Origin: Lachnospiraceae bacterium | GTDB lineage: Bacteria; Bacillota; Clostridia; Lachnospirales; Lachnospiraceae | Reading direction: 5' to 3' | DNA: 44,838 nt | Assembly: GCA_017622505.1 (NCBI GenBank) | Contig: JAGAQZ010000003.1 | Span: forward strand, 1-44,838 | Shown here: piece after piece, positions 272 through 43,924 of the stretch | Position numbering within the stretch: the first letter of the stretch is position 1 | Layout of the letters: the number at the start of each line of letters is the position of its first letter | Notes under the pieces: model-generated | Database searches by the model: none | Told to the model about the DNA's origin: nothing | Seen by the model: only the letters and a program-made list of their open reading frames with translations | Program-made: the position numbers and the translations under genes

Positions 272-458
272 TTAATTCCAACTATCCATCCATTCTACAA
301 TTTCTTCTGTATGTGCGTCTTCTAACATTGTGCGACCTCCGCCGTAATAATATAACTCAACAGGCTTTATTTCGCCTTCATAATATAAAATTCCGTAATA
401 ATAAATGTCCGGCGCTTCCGGATAATTATTGGTATCAAGCTCTTTTAATAGATTTTTT
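272..458 (-). pseudogene. 5'-truncated remnant of the second lipoprotein family, fused to a lost DUF3298-type gene
   Basis: The minus-strand frame ending at the TAA of 272-274 encodes about 60 residues containing IYYYGILYYEGEIKP and ending EEIVEWMDSWN. This matches the C-terminal part of the proteins at 8059-8661 and 8772-9377 (IYYGLIYNEE ... WMDSWEWE). There is no in-frame start: reading back, the frame meets a TGA close to the end of the preceding gene. Immediately upstream, the end of the 469-1884 gene carries the usual embedded start of the next array member (MKQMGKHKRKK), but that frame stops after 16 codons. The locus therefore looks like the 5' end of a fourth array gene joined out of frame to the 3' end of a different family. 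A deletion is the simplest explanation. Confidence 0.65.
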
Positions 459-468
459 TCTTTTGTGC

Positions 469-1884
469 TTACCCATCTGCTTCATCGTAAATTTCCTCCC
501 AGGAACAAAAGAGCTCCAACGTATCATTTCCCGAAATAATATCTAACTCTTCGTTCAAATAATAGTGAATCGGTAATCCTCCAAGACCATATGTAAACCT
601 TGAACTATATGTAACAATCATACCTTCGTCTGTGAAGTAACATTTTACATATTCTTCTATCGACGGATTCCCTTTATCTCCGGCCTTATCGTATAGCCCA
701 AATGCATATTCATAGTAGGAATCAAACTCCTCTTTGGAATACTGGTCAGGTATCTCGTTTATTTTCTTCTCATATGCTTTCCACATAAGCGCAATTAAAT
801 CTTCTCTGGAATAACTTTCGCCTAAAATATCTTCAAAGGAAACCAACGTTCCTTCTTCCAAATTAAAAGTAAGATAACGGGAATCCTCGCATATCATTTC
901 ACCCTGCCATGTATAATCCCCCGGAATATGAGTATACATATGCACAACCAAGTAACGTTCTCCTACATATATAACCTCATGTGCGCTTATATCGATTGTT
1001 CCTTCTTTTTCCTTATCATTCTTTTCAATTACATCTCTAATCTGTGCATTAATTTGCTCGGCATTTGTAATATCATAAAACTGTAGATATGTAATCCTTC
1101 CATTTTCTTTATTTATAATATTGGTATGCTCACTTTCAAAAGCTTCCAATTGCATTTTGGGCTGCATATCCTTTTCTTCATTTTCATTTAATAATTCAAC
1201 CGCTTCCTCTTGTGAACATAATCGATATTCTCCCTCATCCCATAAAAACATATCCGCATAAGAATGATACATATCTACCTTTCCGTCTTCATTTAAATCC
1301 TTAATATAAAACCGCGGTACATACGAAATAGGATCGCCAAGAAATCCTCTATCATCTATCTCACATTCTACTCTTTCTTTCAATCTATCCACATTATTGC
1401 CTTGCGAAAAAATTTCATACGCCGATGCCCCTATATAACCGCCTTCCCTATCGATTAGAGCCACATATCTCCTTACTATATCCTTTGAAGAAATCGTATA
1501 TATAATCTCTTCAATATAATCACATACCTGATAATCATATGTCTTTATAAATACGATTTGCTCATCTTCTTCCAATTCTAACTGTTGTAAATGCTTTTCC
1601 TCCATCAATTTATTCGAAAGCTGCAAACCATACATCCCCCAATTTTCCGGCTCAATATAATAAATCTTCGAATAATCCTCAAAGTAAATGACTTCTTTAT
1701 ATTTTACATCTATTATCTCAATTTGTGACAGAATACTGTATATACCGGAAGTAAAGTTTTCGCTACTATCTATATCAGACTGAGAGTCTTTATTATTTTG
1801 ACAACCGAATAAAAGAGCAAATATTACTGATATGTAAAATAATAAAAACACTTTTTTTCTTTTGTGCTTATCCCTCTGCTTCAT
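469..1884 (-). CDS. RsiV/DUF3298-like lipoprotein, array member 3
   Basis: A 471-residue predicted lipoprotein: basic N-terminus, hydrophobic stretch, lipobox LLFGC with Cys28. Residues about 50-130 hold a segment conserved in the array (IEPENWGMYGL, CDYIEE). A DxNxDGxxD calcium-loop motif (DLNEDGKVD) is at 196-204. Residues about 255-455 resemble the DUF3298 domain of RsiV: a YVGERYLVV strand, then SRYLTF, a 'sF.DIL' segment and a C-terminal CYFTDEGM strand. The start overlaps the previous gene's stop by 17 bases and uses a GGGAGG site inside that gene. The 5' third resembles member 2 at DNA level and the middle to 3' part resembles member 1. Function is inferred: an outward-facing lipoprotein, possibly immunity to the upstream GH19-like effector. 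Confidence 0.8.
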   Translation of the reverse strand: MKQRDKHKRKKVFLLFYISVIFALLFGCQNNKDSQSDIDSSENFTSGIYSILSQIEIIDVKYKEVIYFEDYSKIYYIEPENWGMYGLQLSNKLMEEKHLQQLELEEDEQIVFIKTYDYQVCDYIEEIIYTISSKDIVRRYVALIDREGGYIGASAYEIFSQGNNVDRLKERVECEIDDRGFLGDPISYVPRFYIKDLNEDGKVDMYHSYADMFLWDEGEYRLCSQEEAVELLNENEEKDMQPKMQLEAFESEHTNIINKENGRITYLQFYDITNAEQINAQIRDVIEKNDKEKEGTIDISAHEVIYVGERYLVVHMYTHIPGDYTWQGEMICEDSRYLTFNLEEGTLVSFEDILGESYSREDLIALMWKAYEKKINEIPDQYSKEEFDSYYEYAFGLYDKAGDKGNPSIEEYVKCYFTDEGMIVTYSSRFTYGLGGLPIHYYLNEELDIISGNDTLELFCSWEEIYDEADG

Positions 1885-3355
1885 CGTAAATTTCCTCCCA
1901 GGAACAAAAATGCTCTATTACATCCTCTCTATCATCTCCGTACTCTTCAGATTCAATCATCTCTAAGCGTTCATTCAAGTAATAATTAACCGGTGGCACA
2001 GGCCAACCAAACCGCACCGAACATCCATATACAACCACCATTCCATCATCCGTGAAATAACACTGTGCATAATCTTCCAATACCGGATTACGATTTCCCT
2101 TATCTTCAGGCATTAGCTCTTCTGCACTCTGTAAATCCTCATTGTATTCTTTCAAAACTCTTGCATAGTATTCATCAAACAGTTCCTTGGAATATTGATC
2201 TGGTACTTCATTCATTTTATTCTCGTAGGCTTTCCACATAAGGTTTGTCATATCATCATAGGCATAGTTTTCTCCTAGTATGTCTTTAAGTGTAATCATA
2301 TTTCCCGTTTTTAAATCAAAGGTCAGATAACGCGAACCATCATCTACCGGTGGTTCTGTATAATATTCCCCATCACTGGTCCGTGTACGCATAAGTACCA
2401 CTAAATATTTCTCACCTACGTATATAATATCATCTATACTCATACTCACGTAATAATCCTTATTTTCTTCTGCCAGTTTACGAATCTGTTCATTTATGAG
2501 TTCAGCATTACTGATATCATGAAACTGTGCATATACAACGTATCTGTTTTCAATTTTCTTGATAGATACATGCTCTTCTATAAAGGTATTCATTCTCTCC
2601 TGTTCCGCTAGTTCCTCCTGACTGCAATAATCTATCCACTGCCAATCTAATGCCTCTTCTTCGGGACGCCTTTCAAATCCGCCGTCCTTTCCAAAATAAA
2701 GCGCAACCGGAAAAGACGGTCTATATAAATCAATATAACCATCTTCGTTAAGGTCGCTAATCACATATCCCGGTACATATGTGTAGTAAAAAAATTTATT
2801 ACCTATTTCCTCTATTTCTCCCAGTATATATTCCTTTAGTTCCTCCTCTTTATTCTCCCCCAATACATAAAAATATTCTTCCTGCTCTTTGGCAGCTCCC
2901 CTAAACGTACCCTCCCGATCCATTATAATAATATATTCTTGGACCATATTATCCGCCGTTATGGTATAAATAAATTCTTCAATATAATCACAAACCTGAT
3001 AATCAAATGTTTGCAAAAAAACAACCTGCTCATCATCCGCAAATGTCATATGGTCAAGTCCTGTTATTGATGCAATCCTTGTGGAATCTTCCAAACCATA
3101 CATCCCCCAATTTTCCGGTTCAATATAATACGTCTTCGAATATGGTTCAAAATTCCAGACTTCTTTGTACTTCACATCTATTATCTCAATTTGTGACAGA
3201 ACACTGTCTAATCCGGAAGTAAGTTCTTCGCTACTGCCCATATCAGCCTGAGAGTCTGTGTTATGATTTTGGCAACCGAATAAAAAAACAACCACTATTA
3301 AAATACCAAGTAGAATCACATACTGTTTTCTTTTGTGCTTACCCATCTGCTTCAT
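1868..3355 (-). CDS. RsiV/DUF3298-like lipoprotein, array member 2
   Basis: About 495 residues, starting at the MKQMGKHKRK methionine. That start aligns with the other array members and has a ribosome site (GGAAGG) inside the last codons of the upstream gene; a longer reading is open but lacks this support. Signal peptide with lipobox FLFGC (Cys about 28). It shares the N-terminal conserved segment, the DLNEDGYID calcium-loop motif and the C-terminal RsiV-like region (YVGEKYLVV, SRYLTFDL, CYFTDDGMVV) with its neighbours. It carries extra residues near the C-terminus (AEELMPEDKG). The end of the gene, coding SWEEIYDEAEG, contains the ribosome site and start of member 3. Predicted to be anchored on the outer face of the membrane. 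Biochemical role unknown. Confidence 0.8.
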   Translation of the reverse strand: MKQMGKHKRKQYVILLGILIVVVFLFGCQNHNTDSQADMGSSEELTSGLDSVLSQIEIIDVKYKEVWNFEPYSKTYYIEPENWGMYGLEDSTRIASITGLDHMTFADDEQVVFLQTFDYQVCDYIEEFIYTITADNMVQEYIIIMDREGTFRGAAKEQEEYFYVLGENKEEELKEYILGEIEEIGNKFFYYTYVPGYVISDLNEDGYIDLYRPSFPVALYFGKDGGFERRPEEEALDWQWIDYCSQEELAEQERMNTFIEEHVSIKKIENRYVVYAQFHDISNAELINEQIRKLAEENKDYYVSMSIDDIIYVGEKYLVVLMRTRTSDGEYYTEPPVDDGSRYLTFDLKTGNMITLKDILGENYAYDDMTNLMWKAYENKMNEVPDQYSKELFDEYYARVLKEYNEDLQSAEELMPEDKGNRNPVLEDYAQCYFTDDGMVVVYGCSVRFGWPVPPVNYYLNERLEMIESEEYGDDREDVIEHFCSWEEIYDEAEG

Positions 3356-4790
3356 CGTAAATTTCCTTCCAGGAACAGAAGAGTTCCAAAGTTTCATATT
3401 CCTTTATAATATCTAATCTTTCATCTAAATCATACTTAACAGGCATATCTCCAAATCCGTATGTAATATAGTCACTATATGTCACGACCATACCTTCATC
3501 GGTAAAGTAACATTTTATATAATCCTCTATGACAGGACTTCCGACAGCACTATGAACATCATAATGCTCAAATACGAATTCATAATAAGAATCAAATTCC
3601 TCTTTGGAATACTGATCCGGCACCTCGTTTATTTTTTTCTCATATGCCTTCCACATAAGTGCCACCAAATCTTCTCTGGTGTAATTTTCACCTAAAATAT
3701 CTCCAAAAGAAACCAGCGCTCCCTTTTCCAAATCAAATGTAAGGTAACGGGAGTCCCTGCATAGGATATCTCCGCGCGCAGTATGATTTCCCGGAGTATA
3801 TGTATACATATGCACAACCAGATAACGTTCCCCCACATATATTACATCACTTGCACTTATATTGAATGCTTTCTCCCTTTCCTTATCTTTCATTTCAATT
3901 ACATCTCTAATCTGTGCATTTATTTCTTCGGCATTCGCAATATCATAAAACTGTAAATATGTAATCCTTCCATTTTCTTTATTTATAATATTGGTATGCT
4001 CACTTTGAAAAGCTTCCAATTGCAATTTTATCTGCATTTCCTCCTCTCCAATTGCATTAAGTACTTCTATCCCTTCTTCTCTTGAACACAATCTGTATTC
4101 TCCTTTATCCCATAAAAACATATCGCCAACGGAAGAATAAATATCTACATATCCATCTTCATTTAAATCGCTTATTTTATAACGCGGTGCATATGTAATT
4201 GCGCCCCATATATAAACACTCTCATCCATCAGTTCTATTACAATTTCTTTTAATCTGTCTGTATATGTTTGTCCAGCAGCCATAACAAAATCCAATTCAT
4301 ATGGGGTTATTCCCATCACATTTCTATCTCTGTCCAGAAGAAGACAGTGTGATTTTACAATATCATCCGGCGTAAACGTATAAAATATTACTTCAATATA
4401 ATCACATACCATAAAATCATACGTTTGCAAAAAAACAACCTGTTCTTCTTCCTCTAACACAACCTGATCAAGACCGGTTTCCCTTGCTACTTTCTCAATA
4501 TCCTCCAAACCATAGTTTCCCCAATTATCAGGCTCAATACAGTACTTTTTGGAATATGGTTCAAAATGCCAGACTTCTTTGTATTCCATCTGCACTATTT
4601 TTTCTTTAAATAGAATGCTATCCATTCCAATAATAATTTTACTATTTTCATCGTATAACGGTTCCTCATCATAACCCTGACATCCGATAAATATAAATAC
4701 ACAACAAAAACATAATACAAATACAGCTACTTTTATTTTTAATACACACAAACTTTTTTTATTCTGATATAACGTTATAAATTGCTTCAT
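3339..4790 (-). CDS. RsiV/DUF3298-like lipoprotein, array member 1
   Basis: About 483 residues from the ATG of MKQFITLY, preceded by an AAAGGGAG ribosome site; a GTG six codons earlier would overlap that site. The start lies 32 bases inside the 3' end of the GH19-like effector gene, so the two are translationally coupled. The N-terminal hydrophobic segment ends in lipobox FIGC (Cys37). The array-wide segments are present, including a DLNEDGYVD loop and the C-terminal RsiV-like part (YVGERYLVV, SRYLTFDL, CYFTDEGMVV). In RsiV this domain binds lysozyme; here that is only an analogy. Being the first gene after the effector, it is the most likely cognate partner. Confidence 0.8.
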   Translation of the reverse strand: MKQFITLYQNKKSLCVLKIKVAVFVLCFCCVFIFIGCQGYDEEPLYDENSKIIIGMDSILFKEKIVQMEYKEVWHFEPYSKKYCIEPDNWGNYGLEDIEKVARETGLDQVVLEEEEQVVFLQTYDFMVCDYIEVIFYTFTPDDIVKSHCLLLDRDRNVMGITPYELDFVMAAGQTYTDRLKEIVIELMDESVYIWGAITYAPRYKISDLNEDGYVDIYSSVGDMFLWDKGEYRLCSREEGIEVLNAIGEEEMQIKLQLEAFQSEHTNIINKENGRITYLQFYDIANAEEINAQIRDVIEMKDKEREKAFNISASDVIYVGERYLVVHMYTYTPGNHTARGDILCRDSRYLTFDLEKGALVSFGDILGENYTREDLVALMWKAYEKKINEVPDQYSKEEFDSYYEFVFEHYDVHSAVGSPVIEDYIKCYFTDEGMVVTYSDYITYGFGDMPVKYDLDERLDIIKEYETLELFCSWKEIYDEADG

Positions 4791-6195
4791 AGACTTTCTC
4801 CCTTTCACCTTGCGTAGTTCCTAGTATTTTTTCGGTTATCTGCTCTATCATATCATCCACATCTACTCTATTTGGACCAATAAAATAATACCATTCTGCA
4901 GATATAAAACAATATTTATCTATAATATATTCGGAATAACAGCCATTTTCTCTGATATCCTGCGCAGCTTCTACATCTCTGTACGTCACCTCTATATAAT
5001 GTGCGAACCGATAATAATTTTCTTTATGTGTTAATTGTAAAACGCCTGCCCCTCTATACTTTATCAAATCACTTATTTCATAAGGGCTAGCCGGGACATT
5101 TCCAATATACGTTTTTAACTCATTGATACGCTGTATAACCAGATTATTGCAAGTATAATGATCTTTGTTCTGACTATAAAGAATATTTGAAAATTCTTCT
5201 TCACTAAGGGATATATTTTCATTATAATTATCCAAATAATCAGCACTATGATTTAATACATATGAATTAGCCAAATTTTCATCAAACATTTCATCCAACT
5301 TTATTTTAGTTGAAAAATCTTCTAATTTCTCACGTGTATATTTTCCACCAAATGTTTCTACATAAATCTGTGATAAAAATAATGCTTTTTTGTCATTTTC
5401 ATATACTTTATTCCTATGGAAGATTTCAACAATTTCTAATGTATTCTCCATACTTAGAAAATCCGGATTCCACGCATAAGGATATTCCATTGATAATAGC
5501 TGGCTCTGTAACTGCACTGCCTCGACATAAATATCTGCCTTCTCTTTTAATTTTTCATACATTTTCTGCTGTACTGCAGTCGGAATTCCGTCTGTTATAT
5601 ATAGCATATATTCATAAGGACACACTCTTTGTATATAACTATGAATGGCATTGAAATATGTTGCAATTTCTGTATCAGACAAATGCTCTGTTTCTTGACG
5701 AATTTCTGCTATTTTATACACGCTTTCCATAATGTAATCAGATAATGCTTTGATCTCTGCCTGTTCCGGATCAAGTAAAAACATTGTCGCTATATGTTCC
5801 GTACCCACTTGACCTGTGCCACTCCGCCACACATCACTCTGAAAATATACACTATTCTCTCGAATTTCATTGGTATATGTATTCTCCACTTCGTACAAAC
5901 CATCTATCAGTCTCTGCATAGCAGAAACTATGATTTGCCCCTCATATTCGCAGTCATAATTTGACAACTTATGATTCATATCCTGTGCTCTTACAATTAA
6001 TTCCTGCTCTCTGACAGACGCAGGAAGATTCTCACATATGTCCTCGGCTCTATAAAGTAATCCCGATACTTCTTCAAACACGGCTTGTCCTCTGCGGAAT
6101 AATGAAATAATACTCAACATCATATCATCAGTAATATAATAATGAATTGCTTTTTTATCGTCCATACTCATCTCTTTATCCTCTGTGTCATTCAT
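4759..6195 (-). CDS. Putative type VII-like effector with C-terminal GH19-like (chitinase/lysozyme fold) domain
   Basis: 478 residues, no Sec signal peptide and no membrane segment. Residues 1-240 are mostly helical and unrecognised. Residues about 250-478 resemble predicted GH19 chitinases/endolysins: LFLSQIYVETFGGKYT (273-287) matches the 'AQIAHESGGF' helix and keeps the putative catalytic Glu280, but Val replaces the usual His. YRGAGVLQLTHKENY (380-394) is close to the diagnostic 'YRGRGLIQLTGRANY'. A later ISAEWYYF...QITEKILG...ERE stretch fits the final helices. The ATG overlaps the stop of the preceding ESX-like gene by one base (TGATG). Gene order (small helical partners, then effector, then lipoproteins) suggests export by a type VII-like machine and attack on peptidoglycan. 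Both points are inference, and no secretion ATPase is in the window. Confidence 0.65.
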   Translation of the reverse strand: MNDTEDKEMSMDDKKAIHYYITDDMMLSIISLFRRGQAVFEEVSGLLYRAEDICENLPASVREQELIVRAQDMNHKLSNYDCEYEGQIIVSAMQRLIDGLYEVENTYTNEIRENSVYFQSDVWRSGTGQVGTEHIATMFLLDPEQAEIKALSDYIMESVYKIAEIRQETEHLSDTEIATYFNAIHSYIQRVCPYEYMLYITDGIPTAVQQKMYEKLKEKADIYVEAVQLQSQLLSMEYPYAWNPDFLSMENTLEIVEIFHRNKVYENDKKALFLSQIYVETFGGKYTREKLEDFSTKIKLDEMFDENLANSYVLNHSADYLDNYNENISLSEEEFSNILYSQNKDHYTCNNLVIQRINELKTYIGNVPASPYEISDLIKYRGAGVLQLTHKENYYRFAHYIEVTYRDVEAAQDIRENGCYSEYIIDKYCFISAEWYYFIGPNRVDVDDMIEQITEKILGTTQGEREKVYEAIYNVISE

Positions 6196-6488
6196 CAGAA
6201 TCTGTTTACGCTTGCACTCTGTTCATCCACTTCCCGAAATCCTTCCGTGGCCTCTCCCACAAACCGGTAAATTTCTTTGAGACATTTTATATACTCATAA
6301 ACTGTCGCTTTTTCTTTTGCAAGTACAATGCTCAGCTCATTTGTAAAACTTCCTTCCATCTCATTAAGTAACTCTTCCAACATTTTATAATCTGCTTCTG
6401 CTTTATCCATTATATTGGTATCTATATACTGTTGTATTTCGTCTACCTTTGCTTCCACATTTACGTAATTAATATTTATATCTGACAT
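6195..6488 (-). CDS. Small WXG100/ESX-like protein (97 aa)
   Basis: A 97-residue all-helical protein: two long helices separated by an EGSF turn near residue 50, where WXG100 proteins carry W-x-G. The C-terminal helix ends in FREVDEQSAS, like the 'F..xD...A' tail of ESX proteins. Ribosome site AAGGGG before the ATG. Its stop codon overlaps the start of the effector gene (TGATG), which points to a stoichiometric partner or export chaperone of that effector. There is no tryptophan in the turn, so family membership is a structural guess. Confidence 0.65.
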   Translation of the reverse strand: MSDININYVNVEAKVDEIQQYIDTNIMDKAEADYKMLEELLNEMEGSFTNELSIVLAKEKATVYEYIKCLKEIYRFVGEATEGFREVDEQSASVNRF

Positions 6489-6500
6489 AATATTCCCCTT

Positions 6501-6785
6501 TTATATATTATCTGCTTCCTGCATGAAATTAATATAATGATAAACACTTTGCTCCATTTTATCGAATCCTTCCCCCAAATGTGTTTTCACCATTTCATCC
6601 CATACTTCCAGAATTTCCTCAATCGTCTTGGATGTCTCCGTTGCATGAAATCCGCCCTCTGTATGTAGCAGCTCTTTCAGTTCATCCTCACAATGTGTAA
6701 TATCTGTTAAAATATGCTCATGTAATTCTTTGTATTTATTAAGAAACGTAGAATACTTCTCTACCGATACTTTTATATTTTCCAT
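6501..6785 (-). CDS. Small WXG100/ESX-like protein (94 aa)
   Basis: 94 residues, predicted helix-turn-helix with a GGF turn (HTEGGFHATE, residues about 41-50) in the position of the WXG turn. Good GGGGGA ribosome site before the ATG. It is 12 bases upstream of the next small gene and 8 bases downstream of the previous one, so it belongs to the same operon. It has about the same length as the 97-residue neighbour but little obvious sequence identity. Likely an export partner of the effector; no enzymatic motif is seen. Confidence 0.65.
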   Translation of the reverse strand: MENIKVSVEKYSTFLNKYKELHEHILTDITHCEDELKELLHTEGGFHATETSKTIEEILEVWDEMVKTHLGEGFDKMEQSVYHYINFMQEADNI

Positions 6786-6793
6786 ATATCCCC

Positions 6794-7060
6794 CTATAAC
6801 ATTATACTTAAACTTTCTATCTCTGCATCAAGGCTGCCGATATGTCTTTGTAGCCTTGCAATCTGCTGTTCCATACTATAAATAATTCCGGATAAATTCT
6901 CAGTATACTCATACATTCTATCTCGGGATTCTTCGAACCTATTTTTGATTTTGCCCGCTCCCACACCCTCAAAAATATCCGGCACTACAATCTCTCCCAG
7001 ATAATCATGTCGAAGCGACTGTTCAAGCAAGGTTTTTAACTCCCACCGGGAATCTTCCAT
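6794..7060 (-). CDS. Small helical protein of the effector operon (88-98 aa)
   Basis: I place the start at the ATG of MEDSRWELKT because AAGGGGG lies just before it; an ATG ten codons earlier (7090) has no ribosome site. The product is about 88 residues with a charged N-terminal helix, a short IVVPDIFEGVGAGK segment and a long C-terminal coiled coil (MEQQIARLQRHIGSLDAEIE). It resembles in size and layout the first small proteins of Bacillus YwqHIJ-like LXG operons, but I cannot assign a family with certainty. Confidence 0.6.
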   Translation of the reverse strand: MEDSRWELKTLLEQSLRHDYLGEIVVPDIFEGVGAGKIKNRFEESRDRMYEYTENLSGIIYSMEQQIARLQRHIGSLDAEIESLSIML

Positions 7061-7108
7061 CTTCCCCCTTAAATGCTTCAGATAATTCATATTATCAATG
7101 CAATTATT

Positions 7109-7252
7109 TTATTCATTCTTCAATCGGGATATTTTATTTTCTATTTCGGCTCTTCGTATACGCTCCGCTTCTTCCCGTTCATAATCCGTCATAAGTTCAT
7201 TTGCATAATCCATATCCTTGGTCACCTCATCTGTTCTGTTTTCGTCCATCAT
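7109..7252 (-). CDS. 47-codon small gene at the head of the effector operon
   Basis: A short frame starting MMDENRTDEV and ending ISRLKNE, strongly charged and helical throughout (Asp/Glu/Arg/Lys rich). It shows codon use and strand like its neighbours and ends about 50 bases before the next start. The ribosome site is poor: AAGGGGG is present but about 24 bases upstream of the ATG. Possible small accessory or regulatory protein of the operon. The coding call rests on composition and context only. Confidence 0.5.
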   Translation of the reverse strand: MMDENRTDEVTKDMDYANELMTDYEREEAERIRRAEIENKISRLKNE

Positions 7253-7264
7253 AGGCACTCTGTT

Positions 7265-7408
7265 TTATATAAAATCCCCCTTTATTATATTTTCATTTCT
7301 ATTTATTTTTTTCAATAGCATTTCGATAAGTGTACTGTTTTTTTCGCTAAGTGTATCTAACTCTTCGTTAAAGTGATGATTTTGCTCTAAAAAATTAAGA
7401 TTCTCCCT
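7265..7408 (-). pseudogene. Possible decayed coiled-coil gene fragment
   Basis: A 47-codon open stretch without a plausible start codon encodes a clearly protein-like, coiled-coil sequence (LEQNHHFNEELDTLSEKN, then LIEMLLKKINRNE). It is in the same frame as the 47-codon gene below it and is separated from it by one TAA and five codons. Upstream the frame is broken by TAG and TGA codons. It may be the remains of an earlier first gene of the operon. The region also holds the likely but unlocated promoter of the operon; a TATAAT lies at 7284-7289 without a well spaced -35 box. Confidence 0.3.
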
Positions 7409-7441
7409 CTACTTTCAATCCGCTGTTTCCAACTAAAAATT

Positions 7442-7474
7442 AAAAAGACAGATAGCTAAACTACCTGTCTTTTT
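7442..7474 (-). terminator. Rho-independent terminator of the mazG-lipoprotein unit
   Basis: A 14-bp stem with one G-U pair (AAAAAGACAGGTAG against CTATCTGTCTTTTT) and a 5-base TTTAG loop, ending in a T run on the minus strand. It lies directly after the stop of the 7477-8007 gene and separates the two island operons. Confidence 0.9.
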
Positions 7475-7476
7475 AC

Positions 7477-8007
7477 TTATCCATTATCGTTTTCAACCGG
7501 AAGCTCCCACTCCCAATTAGCAATCCAATTTTCGACAACCGCTATACTAGGATTATCGGCATCATAAAAATTACTTCCTACCTTTATAAATTCAGGCTGT
7601 CCGTCCAAATATCTTACGCCAAAATATGTAGTATTTAACTCTGTCTCTGCATATTGGCGCGGTTCTTCGCTGTATTTAATATCTCTCTTGATTTGACATA
7701 TTATATTATAAAATCCCTGTATCTGAAACTTCGGTACAGAACCTACAACATTGCCATTTAATATTCTGCCATCGGATATTAAAAGAAAGGGATCTTCTTG
7801 AGTTATCATATGGTATATCAATCCATCGTTATCAACTGCTATAACGGCGTATGTTCGATAATCATATGTAGATGATTCAAAAAACACTATTCTAGTATCC
7901 TTACTTGTCAGCTGATCATATTTATGAAGCGAAGGAATAATAAAAATTCCTATTACAATACCTAATAGTAAGATACTGCCAATAATAATCCAGGGTCGTT
8001 TTTTCAT
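7477..8007 (-). CDS. Membrane-anchored member of the second (unrecognised) island family
   Basis: 176 residues. An N-terminal hydrophobic anchor (about residues 6-26) replaces the lipobox of its two paralogues upstream. The extracytoplasmic part keeps the family pattern: a VIAVDNDGLIYHM strand pair (like 'VIYVDNKGNIYYD' in the next gene), a VGSVPK turn, an YFGVRYLDGQP strand and a final ENWIANWEWEL (like 'ILWMDSWEWEL'). It is the most diverged of the three. AAGGACTT ribosome site, strong terminator behind it. Function unknown; its place in a paralogue array beside a putative toxin suggests an immunity or surface role. Confidence 0.75.
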   Translation of the reverse strand: MKKRPWIIIGSILLLGIVIGIFIIPSLHKYDQLTSKDTRIVFFESSTYDYRTYAVIAVDNDGLIYHMITQEDPFLLISDGRILNGNVVGSVPKFQIQGFYNIICQIKRDIKYSEEPRQYAETELNTTYFGVRYLDGQPEFIKVGSNFYDADNPSIAVVENWIANWEWELPVENDNG

Positions 8008-8058
8008 CCCAAGTCCTTTCTTTCATCAATTGGTAATTATATTTTCCAAAAAAAATTT

Positions 8059-8661
8059 TTAATCAAAATACCAATGGGCGCTTTCTAAGTTACTCCACTC
8101 CGGACAGGGATACCATTGTCGCGTCTCTTTATCCCAGCCTTCTTTTTCCAATTCCCATTCCCAGGAATCCATCCAAAGAATAATATCTTTAGCAGTTTCA
8201 TCATCTAACATACTTATTGTTTCACTATAAGTCCATAATCTTTTTGTCTCTATTGTTTCTTCGTTGTATATCAAACCATAATAAATTTGAATCACTTCGT
8301 CGGATGCTGCACCAATCGTGTCCACTTGTGCCGTAATTACCCCTTCCGGTATTTCGCATAACTTATAATATTTCTCTATCACTTCTTGACTCGGAATCTG
8401 TCCAACAACCTCTCCAAAACTATATGTACCGCTTTCTAACATAGGAATTAAGGGTTCATACAGATAATCATAATAAATATTTCCTTTGTTATCCACATAT
8501 ATCACAGCTACGCCACTCTCGTCCGGAACTGCTTCCGCTATCGCAAAAAGAATAGTTGGCTCATCCTCCGCTGTAATTTGAGAAAAATTATTACACCCCA
8601 TAGATAGTGCAAAAAGTATAAAGCATTGTATTAAAAGTATCGTCTTAATGATTTTTCGCAT
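8059..8661 (-). CDS. Lipoprotein, second island family, copy 2
   Basis: 200 residues with a signal peptide and lipobox LSMGC (Cys about 23). The first 45 residues and the last 45 (WMDSWEWELEKEGWD ... EWSN) are nearly the same as in the 8772-9377 copy, also at DNA level, while the middle third has diverged. AGGAGG ribosome site. The gene sits behind a duplicated tail of mazG, so it arose by tandem duplication of a unit that included the end of mazG. No known domain recognised. Predicted to sit on the outer membrane face of the cell. Confidence 0.8.
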   Translation of the reverse strand: MRKIIKTILLIQCFILFALSMGCNNFSQITAEDEPTILFAIAEAVPDESGVAVIYVDNKGNIYYDYLYEPLIPMLESGTYSFGEVVGQIPSQEVIEKYYKLCEIPEGVITAQVDTIGAASDEVIQIYYGLIYNEETIETKRLWTYSETISMLDDETAKDIILWMDSWEWELEKEGWDKETRQWYPCPEWSNLESAHWYFD

Positions 8662-8719
8662 TTAAACCTCCTTCTATAAGTAAAAACAGTATAGCAAATA
8701 TACTTTTATATAGCCGGTT

Positions 8720-8761
8720 CTACTTCTCATACTTCCTTATAGTTTCTTCCTCGCAGTCAAT
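8720..8761 (-). pseudogene. Duplicated mazG 3' tail
   Basis: The minus strand reads DCEEETIRKYEK followed by a stop, against DCVEETIKKYEK-stop at the true mazG end (9436-9475). The similarity continues past the stop through the 3' flank to the next lipoprotein start. It has no start codon and is a footprint of a tandem duplication. Confidence 0.8.
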
Positions 8762-8771
8762 GCATTTGTTT

Positions 8772-9377
8772 TTATTGTTCTAAATACAAACGAACACATC
8801 CTAAATTACTCCAATCCGAACAAGGATACCATTGTTCAGTTTCTTCATCCCAGCCTTCTTTTTCCATTTCCCATTCCCAGGAATCCATCCAAAGAATAAT
8901 TTCTTTTGCTGATTTATTATCCATTATACCTACCGCACTATCATAACTCCATAACGGAACCACTTCATTTCCTTCTTCATTATACCTCACAGCACAGTAA
9001 AACTGAATTGGTTCCGTAGGTGCCGCACCGAAAACATCAACATGTTCACAGTATACATTCTCTGGAATTTCACAAAACAAATCATACTTGGCAACAATCT
9101 CTTCATTTGAAATATGTCCCACATATTTACTATTGGTAAAATGGTTATTTTCTAATATAAGGGCATAATCCTCATATAAATAATCATAATATAAATCTCC
9201 GTGATTATCTAAATATATAACTGCGCACCCTTCTTCGAAGGGGAGCGCCTCGTATATAGCAAAAAGAATAGTTGGCTCATCCTCCGCCGTAATTTGAGAA
9301 GAAGTATTACACCCCATAGATAGTACAAAAAGTATAAAGCATTGTATTAAAAGTATCGTCTTAATGATTTTTTGCAT
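8772..9377 (-). CDS. Lipoprotein, second island family, copy 1
   Basis: 201 residues; signal peptide with lipobox LSMGC (Cys about 23). Conserved core pattern: AVIYLDNHGDLYYDYLYED, a CEIPENV segment, a Tyr-rich strand, then WMDSWEWEMEKEGWD near the C-terminus. It is the copy adjacent to mazG, 58 bases after its stop, with an AGAGG ribosome site, so co-transcription with mazG is likely. No characterised family recognised. With the copy at 8059-8661 it shows conserved ends and a variable middle, the pattern expected from diversification of a binding surface, but that reading is inference. Confidence 0.8.
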   Translation of the reverse strand: MQKIIKTILLIQCFILFVLSMGCNTSSQITAEDEPTILFAIYEALPFEEGCAVIYLDNHGDLYYDYLYEDYALILENNHFTNSKYVGHISNEEIVAKYDLFCEIPENVYCEHVDVFGAAPTEPIQFYCAVRYNEEGNEVVPLWSYDSAVGIMDNKSAKEIILWMDSWEWEMEKEGWDEETEQWYPCSDWSNLGCVRLYLEQ

Positions 9378-9435: not shown

Positions 9436-10146
9436 CTACTTCTCATACTTCTTTATGGTTTCTTCCACGCAATCAATCAACAGCTGCTCAGAATAAATCT
9501 TCTTCTCTGCCGCAATTGCAGAAAGCTCCATCAGCATTTTACCAAGCTCCTTTTCAAGCTCTTCCTGCGGAATATCCTTCCCCTGCTGTTTTAAAGCCTC
9601 AATGCTTGCACCAAGCTTGTCCAAAGAAGCATCATAGTCAAGGATAGGCTCGTAGACCTTGTTGACTTTCTTAAGGACCTTGGATGCCCGGGTAAGGGCA
9701 GGGTGCTCTGCCGGGATTTCACGCAAAGGCGACTCAATCCAAGCCTTGCCTTCTTTCTCTTTTTTCTTAATGTCGTCCCAGTTGTTTAAAACGTCCGACA
9801 CGCCGGAAACTTCCGTAGTCCCGAATACGTGGGGGTGACGGCGCACCATTTTACGACTGATTTCATTTACCACGTCGTCCATAGTAAAAAGCCCCTCTTC
9901 GCCGGCAATCTCTGCATGCATTACAATCTGTAAAAGCAAATCCCCAAGCTCTTCGCACATATTGTCCGCGCTGCCGGTCTCTTCCAAAATACGAACGGAA
10001 GATAAGAACTCATAAGCCTCCTCCAGCATACAGGGGCGAAGGCTGTCGTGAGTCTGCTCTCTGTCCCAGGGACAGCCGTCAGGCGCCCGCAACGCCTTAA
10101 TGATTTCAAGAAAATCTTCATAACTGTATTTCTCTTTGTTTACCAT
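9436..10146 (-). CDS. mazG: Nucleoside triphosphate pyrophosphohydrolase MazG
   Basis: About 236 residues. MazG hydrolyses (d)NTPs to (d)NMP and pyrophosphate, cleaning the nucleotide pool and, in some bacteria, modulating the stringent response. Visible hallmarks: LRAPDGCPWDREQTHDSL near the N-terminus, the metal-binding EEAYE ... EELGDLLLQ motifs, HPHVFG and NWDDIKKKEK, plus a second degenerate C-terminal half, as in full-length two-domain MazG. I start at MVNKEKYS because AGGAG lies eight bases before it; an ATG five codons earlier is also possible. The gene is usually close to hup in clostridia; here about 9.3 kb of accessory DNA follows it. Confidence 0.93.
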   Translation of the reverse strand: MVNKEKYSYEDFLEIIKALRAPDGCPWDREQTHDSLRPCMLEEAYEFLSSVRILEETGSADNMCEELGDLLLQIVMHAEIAGEEGLFTMDDVVNEISRKMVRRHPHVFGTTEVSGVSDVLNNWDDIKKKEKEGKAWIESPLREIPAEHPALTRASKVLKKVNKVYEPILDYDASLDKLGASIEALKQQGKDIPQEELEKELGKMLMELSAIAAEKKIYSEQLLIDCVEETIKKYEK

Positions 10147-10179
10147 CTCTTTGCTCCTCATGCTTCTCTTTAATGTATC

Positions 10180-40042: not shown

Positions 40043-43000
40043 TTACAGTTCCTCTTCAACCATACTCTTGTTCTTATTGAAAATATCATATATACAAGGT
40101 ACAACAATCAGTGTCAAAAGAGTACCGTAAATCAAACCGCCCGCCATGGTAACTGCCATGGGTTGCATCATTTCAGACCCTTCACCCATGCCTAAAACCA
40201 TAGGAATCATGGAAAGGATTGTCGTTAAAGCAGTCATAAGAATCGGGCGCAAACGCGCTTTTCCGGCTTCTACAATCGCTTCCTTTTTCGCCATACCTTC
40301 GCGACGAAGCTGATTAATAAAATCTACCATAACGATACCATTGTTTACGATGATACCGGCCAACATTACAAAACCAACCATTGCGATAACACTCACTTCA
40401 TAACCGCTAAAATACAAAGCGCCAAAGCCGCCTGTGAATGCCAGCGGAATTGTAAACATAATGATAAAAGGTGACAACAATGACTGGAACTGTGCAACCA
40501 TTACCATATAGATAAAGATAATTGCCAAAATCAACATTAATGCCATCTGTTCCATTGCATCCATAATCATTTCGTCTTCACCGGCCATCTTTAAAGAATA
40601 GCCTTCGGGAAGTTCGTACGCATCCAGCTTCTCTTGAAGTTCATTACTTACTAAAGTAACATTATGATCCTCATCAACACCGGCAGTTACGTTGATATAA
40701 CGGGTCTGCGCCGAACGATTGATAGAATTCATGGAAATACCTTCTTCAAAAGTCGCAATTTCCGTAATTTTTATCTCTTCTTCTTCACCATCTTCATTTG
40801 TATACGGGAAAGTAATCTTTTTAATATCATTTAAAGTAACTTCCGACTGTTCTTCACTCATGACATAAACGTCATAATCCTTAACATCAGTGGATACCTG
40901 TGTCGATGCAGTATCTGCAGCCATTTCCATATATACAAGCTGGAATACCTGCGCTACCGTCATTTTATAATTAGCCGCTTTCTCCTTATCCACATGGATT
41001 GTCAAAGATGCCGTAGTATCTTCCAAACCATCGTTTACATCGATAGTACCTTCGGTTTCTTCAACAATTTTGGCTACATCCTGTGCAATTTCTTCTAATT
41101 TATCCAAATCGCGTCCCTGAACCTGAATGCTGAGACCACTACCTAACATTGCTGTCATATCCGATGATGAAGAGCTAATTTCAACCAAACCATCAATATC
41201 TTTGGTCTTCTCCTCAATTTCGTCAATAATGTCATACATAGAACGATCGCTTTCCGGGTCCAAAAGAATATAGTAGGTAACCGAATCTGTTCCTGTAGCC
41301 ATCAAACTCATAGTACCGCCACCACCGGCCATGGCACCGATAGTTTCAATACCTTCTATATCAGAAATAGCTTCCGTTGTGTCATCCGCTAATTCTTTTA
41401 ATTCCTCAAAAGTCAAAACCTGATCTTCATTTGGTCCTACAGTCATGGAAATCTGATCTGCTTCCATTTCCATATCCATAAAAGTAAAACCTCTTGAGAA
41501 TGCAGCCCATGTACTTACAATCAATAAAACTACCGATAAAATTAAAACCAACGGTTTCAAACGCAAAATATAATACAATATATTTCCGTACCAGTCTCTG
41601 ATTTTATCATAAAGCTTTGTATTGGGTTCTACCGCATTTTTAAGCATACCGGATGCCATCATCGGGACAAAAGTCAACGCAACAATCAAACTGGCAACCA
41701 AGGTATACGTAATTGTCAATGCAATATCCACAAATAACTGCTTAGTGATACCATCCGTAAAAATAATCGGTGCGAATACGCAAATTGTAGTTAACGTTGA
41801 TGCAATAATCGCACCACCAACCTGGGATGCGCCTTCCACAGCCGCTTTCTTTGCCGACATTCCAAGCTTCTTTAATCGATAAATATTTTCAATAACTACA
41901 ATGGAGTTATCCACCAACATACCGATACCCAGCGCTAAACCGGACAATGAAATCAAGTTTAATGTAATATCCGTAAAATACATTAATACTATGGCAAAAA
42001 CCACACTCATAGGGATTGAGCATGCAATTACAAAGGTAGAACGCCAGTCTTTCAAGAAAATAATCAAGATAATGACTGCCAAAATGGCACCCACAATCAT
42101 ATTTTCCATAACGGATTTTACAATCATATCGATATAAACACCCTGGTCCATTAAGACCGCAATGTTTAACTCCGGATTGGTTTCTTCAAGGCTTTCAAAT
42201 CTGGCCAATAAGTTATCTGTTACCTCACCTGTGGAATAACCGGTCTGCTTTTCGAAAGAAAGCATAATAGCAGGGTTTCCGTTCACACGGGAGTAAGAAT
42301 CTGCTGCATCATTAACTAATTTAATATCTGCTATGTCCTTCAAATAGATAACGCCAACACTATCCATACCCATATCCATTAAGACAAGGTTAGAAAGGTC
42401 ACTGTAAGAAGATACTTCATCACCTACACTAACCATATACTGTGTGTCACCATCCATTACATAACCTGCAGGCATATAAAAATTCTGCGCCATAAAAAGG
42501 TTGTTAATCATATCAACCGTAAGAATCTGAGTTAAATCTGCAGAATCTTTTGCTGACTCTTCCGCATCGTCAATTTGTTGTTCACCGGCTTCAATTTGTG
42601 CAAGCGCAGAGGAGAGCTGAGAAGATGCAGTGCTCATTTCAATAACTGCATTGATTTCAGCTTCTGTTAATGCCATATATGCATCATTTAAAGTGACTTT
42701 ACCGCCATTTACCTGATTTTGTGCATTTTGTGCCGTAGCAATACCTGCGTTTAACTGTGCTAAGGCTTTGGTTAATTGCTCTATAGCCACAGGAAGGTCC
42801 TGATAACTGTTAACAGTTAATCCCATTGTTGCATATGCCTTTTGTGCTTCTTCCGTCTGAAGTCCTGCATTAATTTGATTAAGGATATCCGGTGCAGTTG
42901 CTATTGCACCACCCAATGTCATAGCAAACGGGTATTCTGATTCCGGAAGTACAATACCCTCGTTTTGGAGTTGCTGCTTTGCCTCCTCTTCCGTTATATT

Positions 43001-43924
43001 TCCACTGCTTAATTCAGTTAAAATAGCAGGTCCTACGGAAATAAGTTTTTCAGTCATTAACGCATTCTCATTAAGCGCTTTTAACTCTTTAATTGCCTTT
43101 TCTAGCGGCGCTTTGTTGGCATTTAACTCATTTATAGTCTGTGTTAAAGTATTTCCGCCAATACTCGCCTCAATCTTTCCGTTTACAACGTCATTTGTGT
43201 TAGATGCCATCTGGGATGCTAATTCTTTCTGCGCATTCTCCAGCTCCTTCTGACCACTTTCAACCTCTTCTCTAGCATCAGCGAGTTCTTCTCTTGCCTC
43301 AACAAACTTCTCGTCAATTTCGGCTAAAATCTTTTCATTTAATGCATTAACCTTATCTTCATTGATAATAACGGTATAACGTTCTTCAACGGTACCGGTT
43401 AAGCTAACCGTAGCAACACCTTCCACACTTTCAAGAGAGGGTTTTAATTCGTTTTCTACATATTCAGCTATCTCAATCTGAGACATGCCTTCGATATCAG
43501 CAGAAGCGACCATAATAGGAAGCATATTAGGGTCTAACTGCATAATCATGGGCGCACTGACCGTATCTGCCCAGCCACCTTTTAACTGATCAAGTTTTTG
43601 TTGCATTTCAATAACAACAGAATCCATATTGGTATCCTGCTCATACTCCAAAATAACCATTGAATAGCTGTTTGACGAAACAGAACTAACACTTTTTATA
43701 TTAGATGTAGTTGCCATAGCAGCTTCAATGGGTGCCGTAATACTCTTTTCAATTTCCTCCGGACTTGCACCGGGGTCTGTTGTTATAACCAATGCATAGG
43801 GAAGACTCATATTCGGCAAAAGATCTGTTGTCATTCTCATAAGAGAAACAACACCTAATACCAGTACCAAAACTACCCCTACCCAAACTGTATAAGGTTT
43901 TTTTACACTAAATTTTGAAAACAT
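40043..43924 (-). CDS. RND family efflux transporter, HAE1/SwrC type
   Basis: 1293 residues, about 250 longer than AcrB. Start MFSKFSVKKPYTVWVGVVLVL matches TM1. The porter motif RMTTDLLPNMSLPYALV and the TM4 proton-relay LALGIGMLVDNSIVVIENIYR with its Asp are present, as is the second-half GIIVNNGIVMVDFIN. The extra length is a coiled-coil insert at about residues 195-470 (EEKFVEAREELADAREEVESG region) in the first extracytoplasmic domain. Such inserts are seen in Firmicute RND pumps and may replace a separate adaptor, since no membrane fusion protein gene is adjacent. GGAGG ribosome site and a 170-base leader. Confidence 0.93.
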   Translation of the reverse strand: MFSKFSVKKPYTVWVGVVLVLVLGVVSLMRMTTDLLPNMSLPYALVITTDPGASPEEIEKSITAPIEAAMATTSNIKSVSSVSSNSYSMVILEYEQDTNMDSVVIEMQQKLDQLKGGWADTVSAPMIMQLDPNMLPIMVASADIEGMSQIEIAEYVENELKPSLESVEGVATVSLTGTVEERYTVIINEDKVNALNEKILAEIDEKFVEAREELADAREEVESGQKELENAQKELASQMASNTNDVVNGKIEASIGGNTLTQTINELNANKAPLEKAIKELKALNENALMTEKLISVGPAILTELSSGNITEEEAKQQLQNEGIVLPESEYPFAMTLGGAIATAPDILNQINAGLQTEEAQKAYATMGLTVNSYQDLPVAIEQLTKALAQLNAGIATAQNAQNQVNGGKVTLNDAYMALTEAEINAVIEMSTASSQLSSALAQIEAGEQQIDDAEESAKDSADLTQILTVDMINNLFMAQNFYMPAGYVMDGDTQYMVSVGDEVSSYSDLSNLVLMDMGMDSVGVIYLKDIADIKLVNDAADSYSRVNGNPAIMLSFEKQTGYSTGEVTDNLLARFESLEETNPELNIAVLMDQGVYIDMIVKSVMENMIVGAILAVIILIIFLKDWRSTFVIACSIPMSVVFAIVLMYFTDITLNLISLSGLALGIGMLVDNSIVVIENIYRLKKLGMSAKKAAVEGASQVGGAIIASTLTTICVFAPIIFTDGITKQLFVDIALTITYTLVASLIVALTFVPMMASGMLKNAVEPNTKLYDKIRDWYGNILYYILRLKPLVLILSVVLLIVSTWAAFSRGFTFMDMEMEADQISMTVGPNEDQVLTFEELKELADDTTEAISDIEGIETIGAMAGGGGTMSLMATGTDSVTYYILLDPESDRSMYDIIDEIEEKTKDIDGLVEISSSSSDMTAMLGSGLSIQVQGRDLDKLEEIAQDVAKIVEETEGTIDVNDGLEDTTASLTIHVDKEKAANYKMTVAQVFQLVYMEMAADTASTQVSTDVKDYDVYVMSEEQSEVTLNDIKKITFPYTNEDGEEEEIKITEIATFEEGISMNSINRSAQTRYINVTAGVDEDHNVTLVSNELQEKLDAYELPEGYSLKMAGEDEMIMDAMEQMALMLILAIIFIYMVMVAQFQSLLSPFIIMFTIPLAFTGGFGALYFSGYEVSVIAMVGFVMLAGIIVNNGIVMVDFINQLRREGMAKKEAIVEAGKARLRPILMTALTTILSMIPMVLGMGEGSEMMQPMAVTMAGGLIYGTLLTLIVVPCIYDIFNKNKSMVEEEL

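Follow-up and report, generated by a model that had tools for sequence, protein, structure and literature searches.

The window analysed here is a stretch of 44,838 nucleotides from the Lachnospiraceae bacterium assembly GCA_017622505.1 (contig JAGAQZ010000003.1, positions 1-44,838, forward strand). On its minus strand, genes for small proteins are followed by a gene for a 478-residue protein, termed the effector below, and by genes for three large lipoproteins. The best explanation, and in our judgement the probable one, is an acquired antibacterial toxin-immunity operon with a GH19 toxin, RsiV-like lipoproteins as immunity proteins and the build of a type VII-like effector module. Its core, a GH19 toxin with RsiV-like immunity, is highly likely from the sequence comparisons described here. 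A first-pass annotation had listed three small genes, the 478-residue gene and three overlapping lipoprotein paralogues, all tightly coupled. All of these are open minus-strand frames, and a fourth small open reading frame (ORF) of 47 residues precedes them.

The GH19-like effector

The effector gene lies at 4759..6195 on the minus strand. Residues ~1-235 are without a family, and residues ~236-478 are GH19 endolysin-like, with E280, E289 and T389. As had been claimed, the protein is without a hydrophobic signal segment: its mean hydropathy over 19 residues peaks at 0.79. In the Pfam scan it gave no row for PF00182; relatives in the genomes labelled G454 and G231 scored 20.5 and 22.6 bits, with a cut-off of 25.5. 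When the effector alone was compared with the PDB using phmmer, the best match reached only E = 0.19 (8xcl), yet was placed at the GH19 signature KYRGAGVLQLTHK. A search of 397 family genomes yielded a clear relative of the C-terminal half in G454 (E = 2.8e-10) and a weak one in G453 (E = 0.008), which was later borne out.

Five domains (from the effector, G454, G231 and two genes of G453) were aligned. E45, E54 and T154 of the aligned part, which correspond to E280, E289 and T389, are invariant in all five, and the same Glu-Glu-Thr set is invariant in a smaller three-domain alignment. E280 and E289 are nine residues apart, and T389 is the threonine of a QLT motif. In the effector's row the stretch from the glutamates to the signature is longer than in the other rows. 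The five-domain profile matched the endolysin 4ok7 in the PDB at E = 6.2e-14, together with many GH19 chitinases. In GH19 endolysins the proton donor E49 and the base E58 are nine apart (PMC8547705; here and below, statements from the literature refer to portions of the cited papers). The GH19-fold effector TfcB of Stenotrophomonas maltophilia, which is bactericidal, has the catalytic pair E34/E43, also nine apart; TfcB differs in its type IV secretion and in its third catalytic residue, which is Val in TfcB and Thr in the effector (PMC11253643). GH19 is a member of the lysozyme superfamily (PMC7844276). As judged by alignment, the GH19 endolysin-like domain in the C-terminal half of the effector retains all three residues of the Glu-Glu-Thr set. 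The first-pass annotation had described a GH19-like C-terminal half and a peptidoglycan-directed toxin; the first description held, and the second is supported by sequence.

Endolysins were among the best GH19 matches, and the phage set contained a single weak, partial match to the effector (30.9% over 22% of the protein), as would be expected of endolysin cargo left over from a prophage. No phage family exceeded the cut-off among the 20 window proteins scanned with Pfam, and on general knowledge small genes, a long N-terminus and lipoproteins are ill-fitting for an endolysin cassette. Such an origin is highly improbable.

RsiV-like lipoproteins behind the effector

The three large lipoproteins are encoded on the minus strand at 3339..4790 (lipoprotein 1; listed ORF to 4808, 489 residues), 1868..3355 (lipoprotein 2; listed ORF to 3397, 509 residues) and 469..1884 (lipoprotein 3; 471 residues). 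Starts of lipoproteins 1 and 2 were set at ATG 4790 and ATG 3355 by eye, using ribosome-binding sites. Lipoprotein 1 overlaps the effector gene by 32 nucleotides, and successive lipoprotein genes overlap by 17 nucleotides. The paralogues have diverged, the other two being 44% and 60% identical to lipoprotein 1. Their N-termini reach peak 19-residue mean hydropathies of 2.03-2.78 and end at the cysteine of FIGC, LFGC and LFGC. A hydrophobic N-terminus ending at a cysteine is taken here to be a lipoprotein lipobox, an assignment made by eye. The proteins are predicted to be membrane-anchored with their domain outside. The N-terminus is a lipoprotein signal, and an anti-sigma part of the RsiV type is not present.

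The link to RsiV came from G454, where the gene directly 3' of the GH19 gene encodes a lipoprotein that matches PdaC/DUF4163 (E = 0.001). RsiV, made up of DUF4163 and DUF3298, binds to the active site of lysozyme and at a 1:1 ratio suppresses nearly all of its activity (PMC5014341). Pfam gave a weak DUF3298 match in two of the three window lipoproteins (E = 0.12 and 0.3). A DUF3298 profile was built from 27 of the 28 genus proteins found by PF11738 (L038 was left out); none came from the GH19 loci examined. The C-terminal halves of the window lipoproteins, taken as a group, scored 41.2 against this profile in hhalign, and the maximum in 60 column shuffles was 17.7. Column shuffling is a lenient control, so the weight is carried by controls with real ORFs. 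When 268 real ORFs of 150 residues or more were ranked, the top nine rows (seven genes) were all GH19 neighbours (34.9-44.0; next ORF 27.0). Among 110 further ORFs the best five were again all GH19 neighbours (52.6-27.6; sixth 26.4).

A combined profile placed all 15 GH19-neighbour genes above the rest of the 378 ORFs (next ORF 25.4). Nine of the 15 genes are contained in this profile and six were left out. Left-out genes scored 68.7 (lipoprotein 2), 58.0 (G630), 51.3 (G723), 48.8 (lipoprotein 1) and 32.0 (lipoprotein 3); the third G453 lipoprotein, also left out, scored 139.3 and is a close paralogue of profile rows. Loci L026 and L080 overlap, giving duplicate rows in the 268- and 378-ORF rankings, and gene counts were corrected for this. 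Direct similarity was weak. BLASTP of lipoprotein 1 against the G453 and G454 lipoproteins gave E = 0.009 and 0.36, and hhalign gave 19.8 for the window group against the G454 lipoprotein and 15.8 for the G453 against the G454 lipoproteins. The link between the window, G453 and G454 lipoproteins therefore runs via the DUF3298 profile. The lipoprotein profile found no match in the PDB.

Several results count against this assignment. The PF11738 search missed all three window lipoproteins. Compared singly with the DUF3298 profile, lipoprotein 2 scored 41.5 and lipoprotein 1 24.3, and lipoprotein 3 fell outside the best 30. With the same DUF3298-only profile, the neighbour in G630 (27.6) stood barely above the next ORF (26.4), and that in G723 reached 19.4 (rank 11). 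For the window lipoproteins, the DUF3298 link is one of profile comparison. By that comparison, their C-terminal halves carry an RsiV-like DUF4163/DUF3298 domain.

Near-identical seams of ~52 nucleotides were observed at the lipoprotein junctions (window positions 456-507, 1855-1906 and 3326-3377). Each seam spans the end of one gene plus the ribosome-binding site and start of the next. The last, behind lipoprotein 3, opens a truncated fourth copy of a large lipoprotein, whose frame closes after 16 codons. Recombination of tandem immunity paralogues has been described for esaG and tipC (PMC9484751).

GH19 profile searches of the 397 family genomes (E <= 0.01) and of 392 order genomes (E <= 0.001), sets that overlap in part, yielded 19 genes in 18 genomes. 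Neighbourhoods were compared for 17 genes in 16 genomes; G120 and G279 were left out (internal stop codons, E = 0.003 and 0.007). Hits in G198 (DnaA-like by eye) and G245 from the effector search of the 397 family genomes were rejected after neighbourhood comparison. For ten GH19 genes in nine of the 16 genomes, the next same-strand gene encodes a membrane-anchored RsiV-like protein (the source genome, G453 with two genes, G454, G231, G678, G480, G633, G630 and G723). The carriers of the GH19 domain differ: LXG was found in both G453 genes (PF04740, E = 1.1e-10 and 3.9e-11), RHS in G231, G480 and G723, and choline-binding repeats in G454. The sequences show that a membrane-anchored protein of this type also comes after the GH19 domain in other toxin architectures (LXG, RHS). 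DUF3298 genes are uncommon (28 listed matches, spread over 20 of 31 genus genomes), so that a DUF3298 gene beside most GH19 toxins by chance is very unlikely.

Seven of the 16 genomes are without such a neighbour (G046, G240, G499, G735, G054, G481 and G050). Contigs end 218, 217, 179 and 429 nucleotides behind the GH19 gene in G046, G240, G499 and G735, and the 3' neighbour is therefore unseen there. Ordinary chitinases, with PF00182 above its cut-off and N-terminal signals by eye, are encoded in G054, G481 and G735; the next genes in G054 and G481 are other than RsiV-like. G050 is a real exception that tells against the pairing, with a GH19 protein near a phage-hub-like gene and the next gene facing it.

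At L084:219-5059 in G046, a DUF4280 protein with a GH19 C-terminus lies downstream of a phage-hub/type VI-like gene, with two genes between.

The earlier proposal of extracytoplasmic, lipid-anchored immunity gained from the RsiV-like domain and from the same pairing in eight other genomes. Wide occurrence of the lipoproteins without the effector, against which that proposal had been set, was not seen: among 31 genus genomes they were found in the source genome only (1/31). RsiV is a receptor as well as an inhibitor of lysozyme (PMC5014341), and on this model the lipoproteins might act as sensors or binders of foreign lysozyme or of peptidoglycan fragments, with no part in immunity to this toxin. 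Their N-terminus is a lipoprotein signal, leaving no room for a cytoplasmic anti-sigma part, and in nine genomes the GH19 domain is followed immediately by such a gene, at the usual position of immunity genes. A sensor role is improbable.

A second rival is a housekeeping enzyme for cell-wall remodelling, accompanied by lipoprotein regulators and serving as no weapon. It would draw on the ability of GH19 enzymes to cut peptidoglycan and on the Pfam name of the DUF4163 domain, which is taken from the deacetylase PdaC. It is very improbable for an effector that lacks a signal peptide, was missing from the other 30 genomes of the genus that were searched, is encoded in a low-GC island with empty sites in four relatives, and belongs to a pairing that recurs in RHS and LXG proteins.

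Genomic setting and route of delivery

The operon lies in an island at 272..9377 (minus strand). Its flanking genes are mazG at 9436-10161 and hup at 1-104, the latter truncated where the window begins. The guanine-plus-cytosine (GC) content of the island is 34.7%, compared with 42.9% for 9436-44838. In the 5' to 3' order of the minus strand, the island encodes three A2 paralogues (201, 200 and 176 residues), the 47-residue ORF, proteins of 98, 94 and 97 residues, the 478-residue protein, the three large lipoproteins and an A2 remnant. In all four genus members examined (L120, L121, L122 and L123), mazG and hup are directly adjacent without the island, which was therefore inserted at this site. 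mazG was matched in 8 of 31 genus genomes (E <= 0.001), three of which are outside the adjacency comparison. The effector was absent beyond the source genome in a search of 99 relatives. No effector homologues were found in the genome contig set, the viral contig set or the plasmid set, and the lipoprotein alignment had no match in the genome contig set. A second effector match in the source genome (C82, E = 0.05) was rejected as a 521-residue protein resembling a membrane protein.

Upstream of the effector, on the minus strand, are the genes for the 97-residue protein (6195..6488), the 94-residue protein (6501..6785) and the 98-residue protein (6794..7090); a charged ORF of 47 residues, known from its translation, lies 5' of the last (7109..7252). 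The 97-residue gene and the effector gene are coupled by TGATG, with one base shared. Helical partners, effector and immunity gene is the order of LXG operons (PMC10730906). The layout here, with small genes 5' and an immunity gene 3', fits that order; homology of the partners is weak and helicity was judged by eye.

The small proteins and the effector N-terminus were compared with known sets, with controls drawn from the small ORFs (45 of 87) and the large ORFs (45 of 69). Against the WXG100 set, hhalign gave 19.7 for the 97-residue and 19.4 for the 98-residue protein (best of 45 small controls 17.4). Against the YwqH-like set the scores were 18.4 for the 98-residue and 19.1 for the 94-residue protein (best small control 15.1, best large 16.9). 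The signals are thus weak, YwqH-like for the 94-residue protein and YwqH/WXG100-like for the 98-residue protein (PF16888, E = 0.037). In the alignment to WXG100 the position of the tryptophan is occupied by M in the 97-residue and by F in the 98-residue protein. The WXG-like turns of the first-pass annotation stood in part, with scores just above the small controls and the tryptophan replaced in these two proteins. The 97-residue protein is a possible ESX-type partner: FREVD (FxxxD) at residues 84-88 of 97 fits the C-terminal F/YxxxD/E rule for type VII partners (PMC10730906), a short motif that may occur by chance.

Type VII machinery was found beside the related pair in G453, where YukC/EssB and EssC follow downstream of the two LXG-GH19 genes, all on a single contig. 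The distance from the second gene to EssB is ~5 kb, and EssC scored 1396.9 bits (cut-off 778.4). EssC loci of the genus members G015, G002 and G016 (L029, L028 and L027) contain operons of small proteins, a large effector and a lipoprotein.

Further features of these loci were recorded. The G453 region (L026:7050-9623, L080:4362-16434) holds two tandem LXG-GH19 genes, four RsiV-like lipoprotein genes, a WXG100 gene, a YwqH-like gene, a LytTR-like regulator (by eye), YukC/EssB and EssC. The large effectors at L027:3336-7496, L028:4331-8710 and L029:15467-18983 have no Pfam/NCBIfam hit at E <= 0.01, and each is followed by a lipoprotein gene; these are possible unclassified type VII toxin-lipoprotein pairs. 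In G003 (L034:15965-18832) a run of small WXG100-like genes lies downstream of a 1676-residue EssC, with eight WXG100 matches on the contig. Four clustered WXG100 matches were found in G026 (C119:11544-12798), a genome that is 84% complete and without an over-cut-off EssC.

A number of findings weaken the case for type VII. No EssC was found in the source assembly (90.85% complete), and lack of a type VII secretion ATPase had been named in the first-pass annotation as refuting its proposal; WXG100 and LXG were not found there either. The closest EssC match there was partial (116.8 bits) and is an FtsK_SpoIIIE stretch. The effector N-terminus gave no hit to LXG (PF04740), with an hhalign score of 14.2 against controls of up to 23.5, and no link to four other genus effector N-termini. 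The small proteins exceeded the small controls only slightly, and one large control (21.7, the best of 45) outscored them against WXG100. No Pfam or NCBIfam family reached its cut-off for the ten island proteins scanned. A 1293-residue ORF at 40043-43924 was considered as EssC and rejected as an ACR_tran transporter.

LXG over the cut-off was found in 1 of 31 genus genomes and EssC over the cut-off in 8 of 31, so that a missing LXG domain says little against type VII in this case. The assembly is incomplete, and a single missing locus could explain the absent EssC. Equally, the strain may have lost the type VII machine and keep the module for protection, or may use another route. The same toxin and immunity could be delivered by another apparatus or by lysis, with small genes that are not ESX-type partners. 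The missing machinery and the unmatched N-terminus would suit this, as would the fact that in relatives GH19 domains are also carried by RHS proteins and, close to a phage-hub/type VI-like gene, by a DUF4280 protein. Against it, the effector has no Pfam match to RHS or DUF4280, the gene order equals that of the EssC-linked genus operons, and lacking LXG is common in the genus; delivery of this other kind is unlikely. The proposal of type VII delivery is sustained by the gene order, the LXG-GH19 genes near EssB/EssC in G453 and the EssC operons of the genus, and is not sustained by the source assembly or by the N-terminus. Type VII-type delivery is likely from the gene layout, and unproven. The LXG domain was looked for and not found, and the effector is therefore not filed as an LXG effector.

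The A2 family consists of small lipoproteins distinct from the large ones and has three intact members at 7477-9377, all on the minus strand. These are a protein of 176 residues with an N-terminal hydrophobic segment (7477..8007) and lipoproteins of 200 and 201 residues (8059..8661 and 8772..9377). A remnant at 272..451 (minus strand; match 203-403, E = 7.7e-5), behind the truncated fourth large-lipoprotein start, is the C-terminal end of a family member. A2 remains thus flank the operon on both sides, which suggests that it was inserted into, or grew within, an A2 array. The family is perhaps orphan immunity. Three-gene A2 arrays were seen at different chromosomal sites in two genus genomes (window 7477-9377; G019, L118:9749-12132), and a single copy lies elsewhere in one of the two (L119:6549-7052).

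Proposed action and relation to known systems

In the proposed mechanism, the effector N-terminus and the small proteins would form a type VII-type pre-secretion complex, to be exported by a type VII machine that in this strain is absent from the assembly or lost. The GH19 domain would cut the peptidoglycan of neighbouring bacteria. The lipoproteins, anchored on the outside of the membrane, would block the active site of the GH19 domain in the way that RsiV blocks lysozyme, and so shield the cell's own wall from the toxin. Three diverged copies would cover toxin variants.

The first-pass annotation knew of no described system with this pairing. This is fair for the RsiV-like part; lipoprotein immunity (TilA) and a GH19 effector with a lipoprotein inhibitor (XAC2609/XAC2610) were already known. 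XAC2609/XAC2610 (X-Tfe/X-Tfi) of Xanthomonas citri likewise combine a GH19 effector that hydrolyses peptidoglycan with a lipoprotein inhibitor dedicated to it, which was modelled to reach the catalytic Glu. They differ in type IV secretion and in the inhibitor, a beta-propeller like PliI and Tsi1 and not DUF4163/DUF3298 (PMC10933484). TslA, TilA and TlaA1-2 of Staphylococcus aureus, whose toxin is a type VII toxin, share an extracellular immunity lipoprotein, small helical partners and immunity homologues in variable tandem copies; the differences are a phospholipase toxin with the reverse domain order and a TilA that belongs to DUF576 (PMC10730906). TelC and TipC of Streptococcus resemble the operon as a type VII toxin against a cell-wall pathway with several immunity paralogues (PMC5555719, PMC9484751); TelC differs as a lipid II phosphatase with an LXG domain (PMC5555719). 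RsiV of Bacillus subtilis, like the window lipoproteins, has DUF4163 and DUF3298 outside the membrane, where it plugs and inhibits an enzyme of the lysozyme superfamily. It differs as an anti-sigma factor that answers c-type lysozyme and is held by a transmembrane anchor, not as a lipoprotein (PMC5014341). In the portion examined of a 2012 survey of polymorphic toxins, Imm65 was the sole lipoprotein immunity family and GH19 was not included (PMC3482391). A literature search covering part of the field found no description of DUF4163/DUF3298 proteins as toxin immunity.

A wider reading is offered tentatively. Membrane-anchored DUF4163/DUF3298 proteins might largely be an immunity superfamily against lysozyme-fold toxins on type VII, RHS and other carriers. 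RsiV would then be a branch that gained its anti-sigma part, and the window operon a type VII member that lacks LXG and has its immunity genes in tandem.

The analysis names a candidate immunity family against peptidoglycan-cutting toxins and ties it to the lysozyme receptor RsiV. The family probably acts in Gram-positive bacteria, to judge from the EssC of the relatives, which is of the firmicute type. The operon would also help in finding type VII effectors that lack LXG and that for the most part escape family searches in the genus. Two questions were left unanswered in the paper on the RsiV structure, namely whether lysozymes of the G or I type are bound by RsiV, and whether Gram-positive bacteria have further lysozyme inhibitors (PMC5014341). 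With a GH19 toxin and its RsiV-like lipoprotein, a single purified pair is enough to put questions of this kind to the test.

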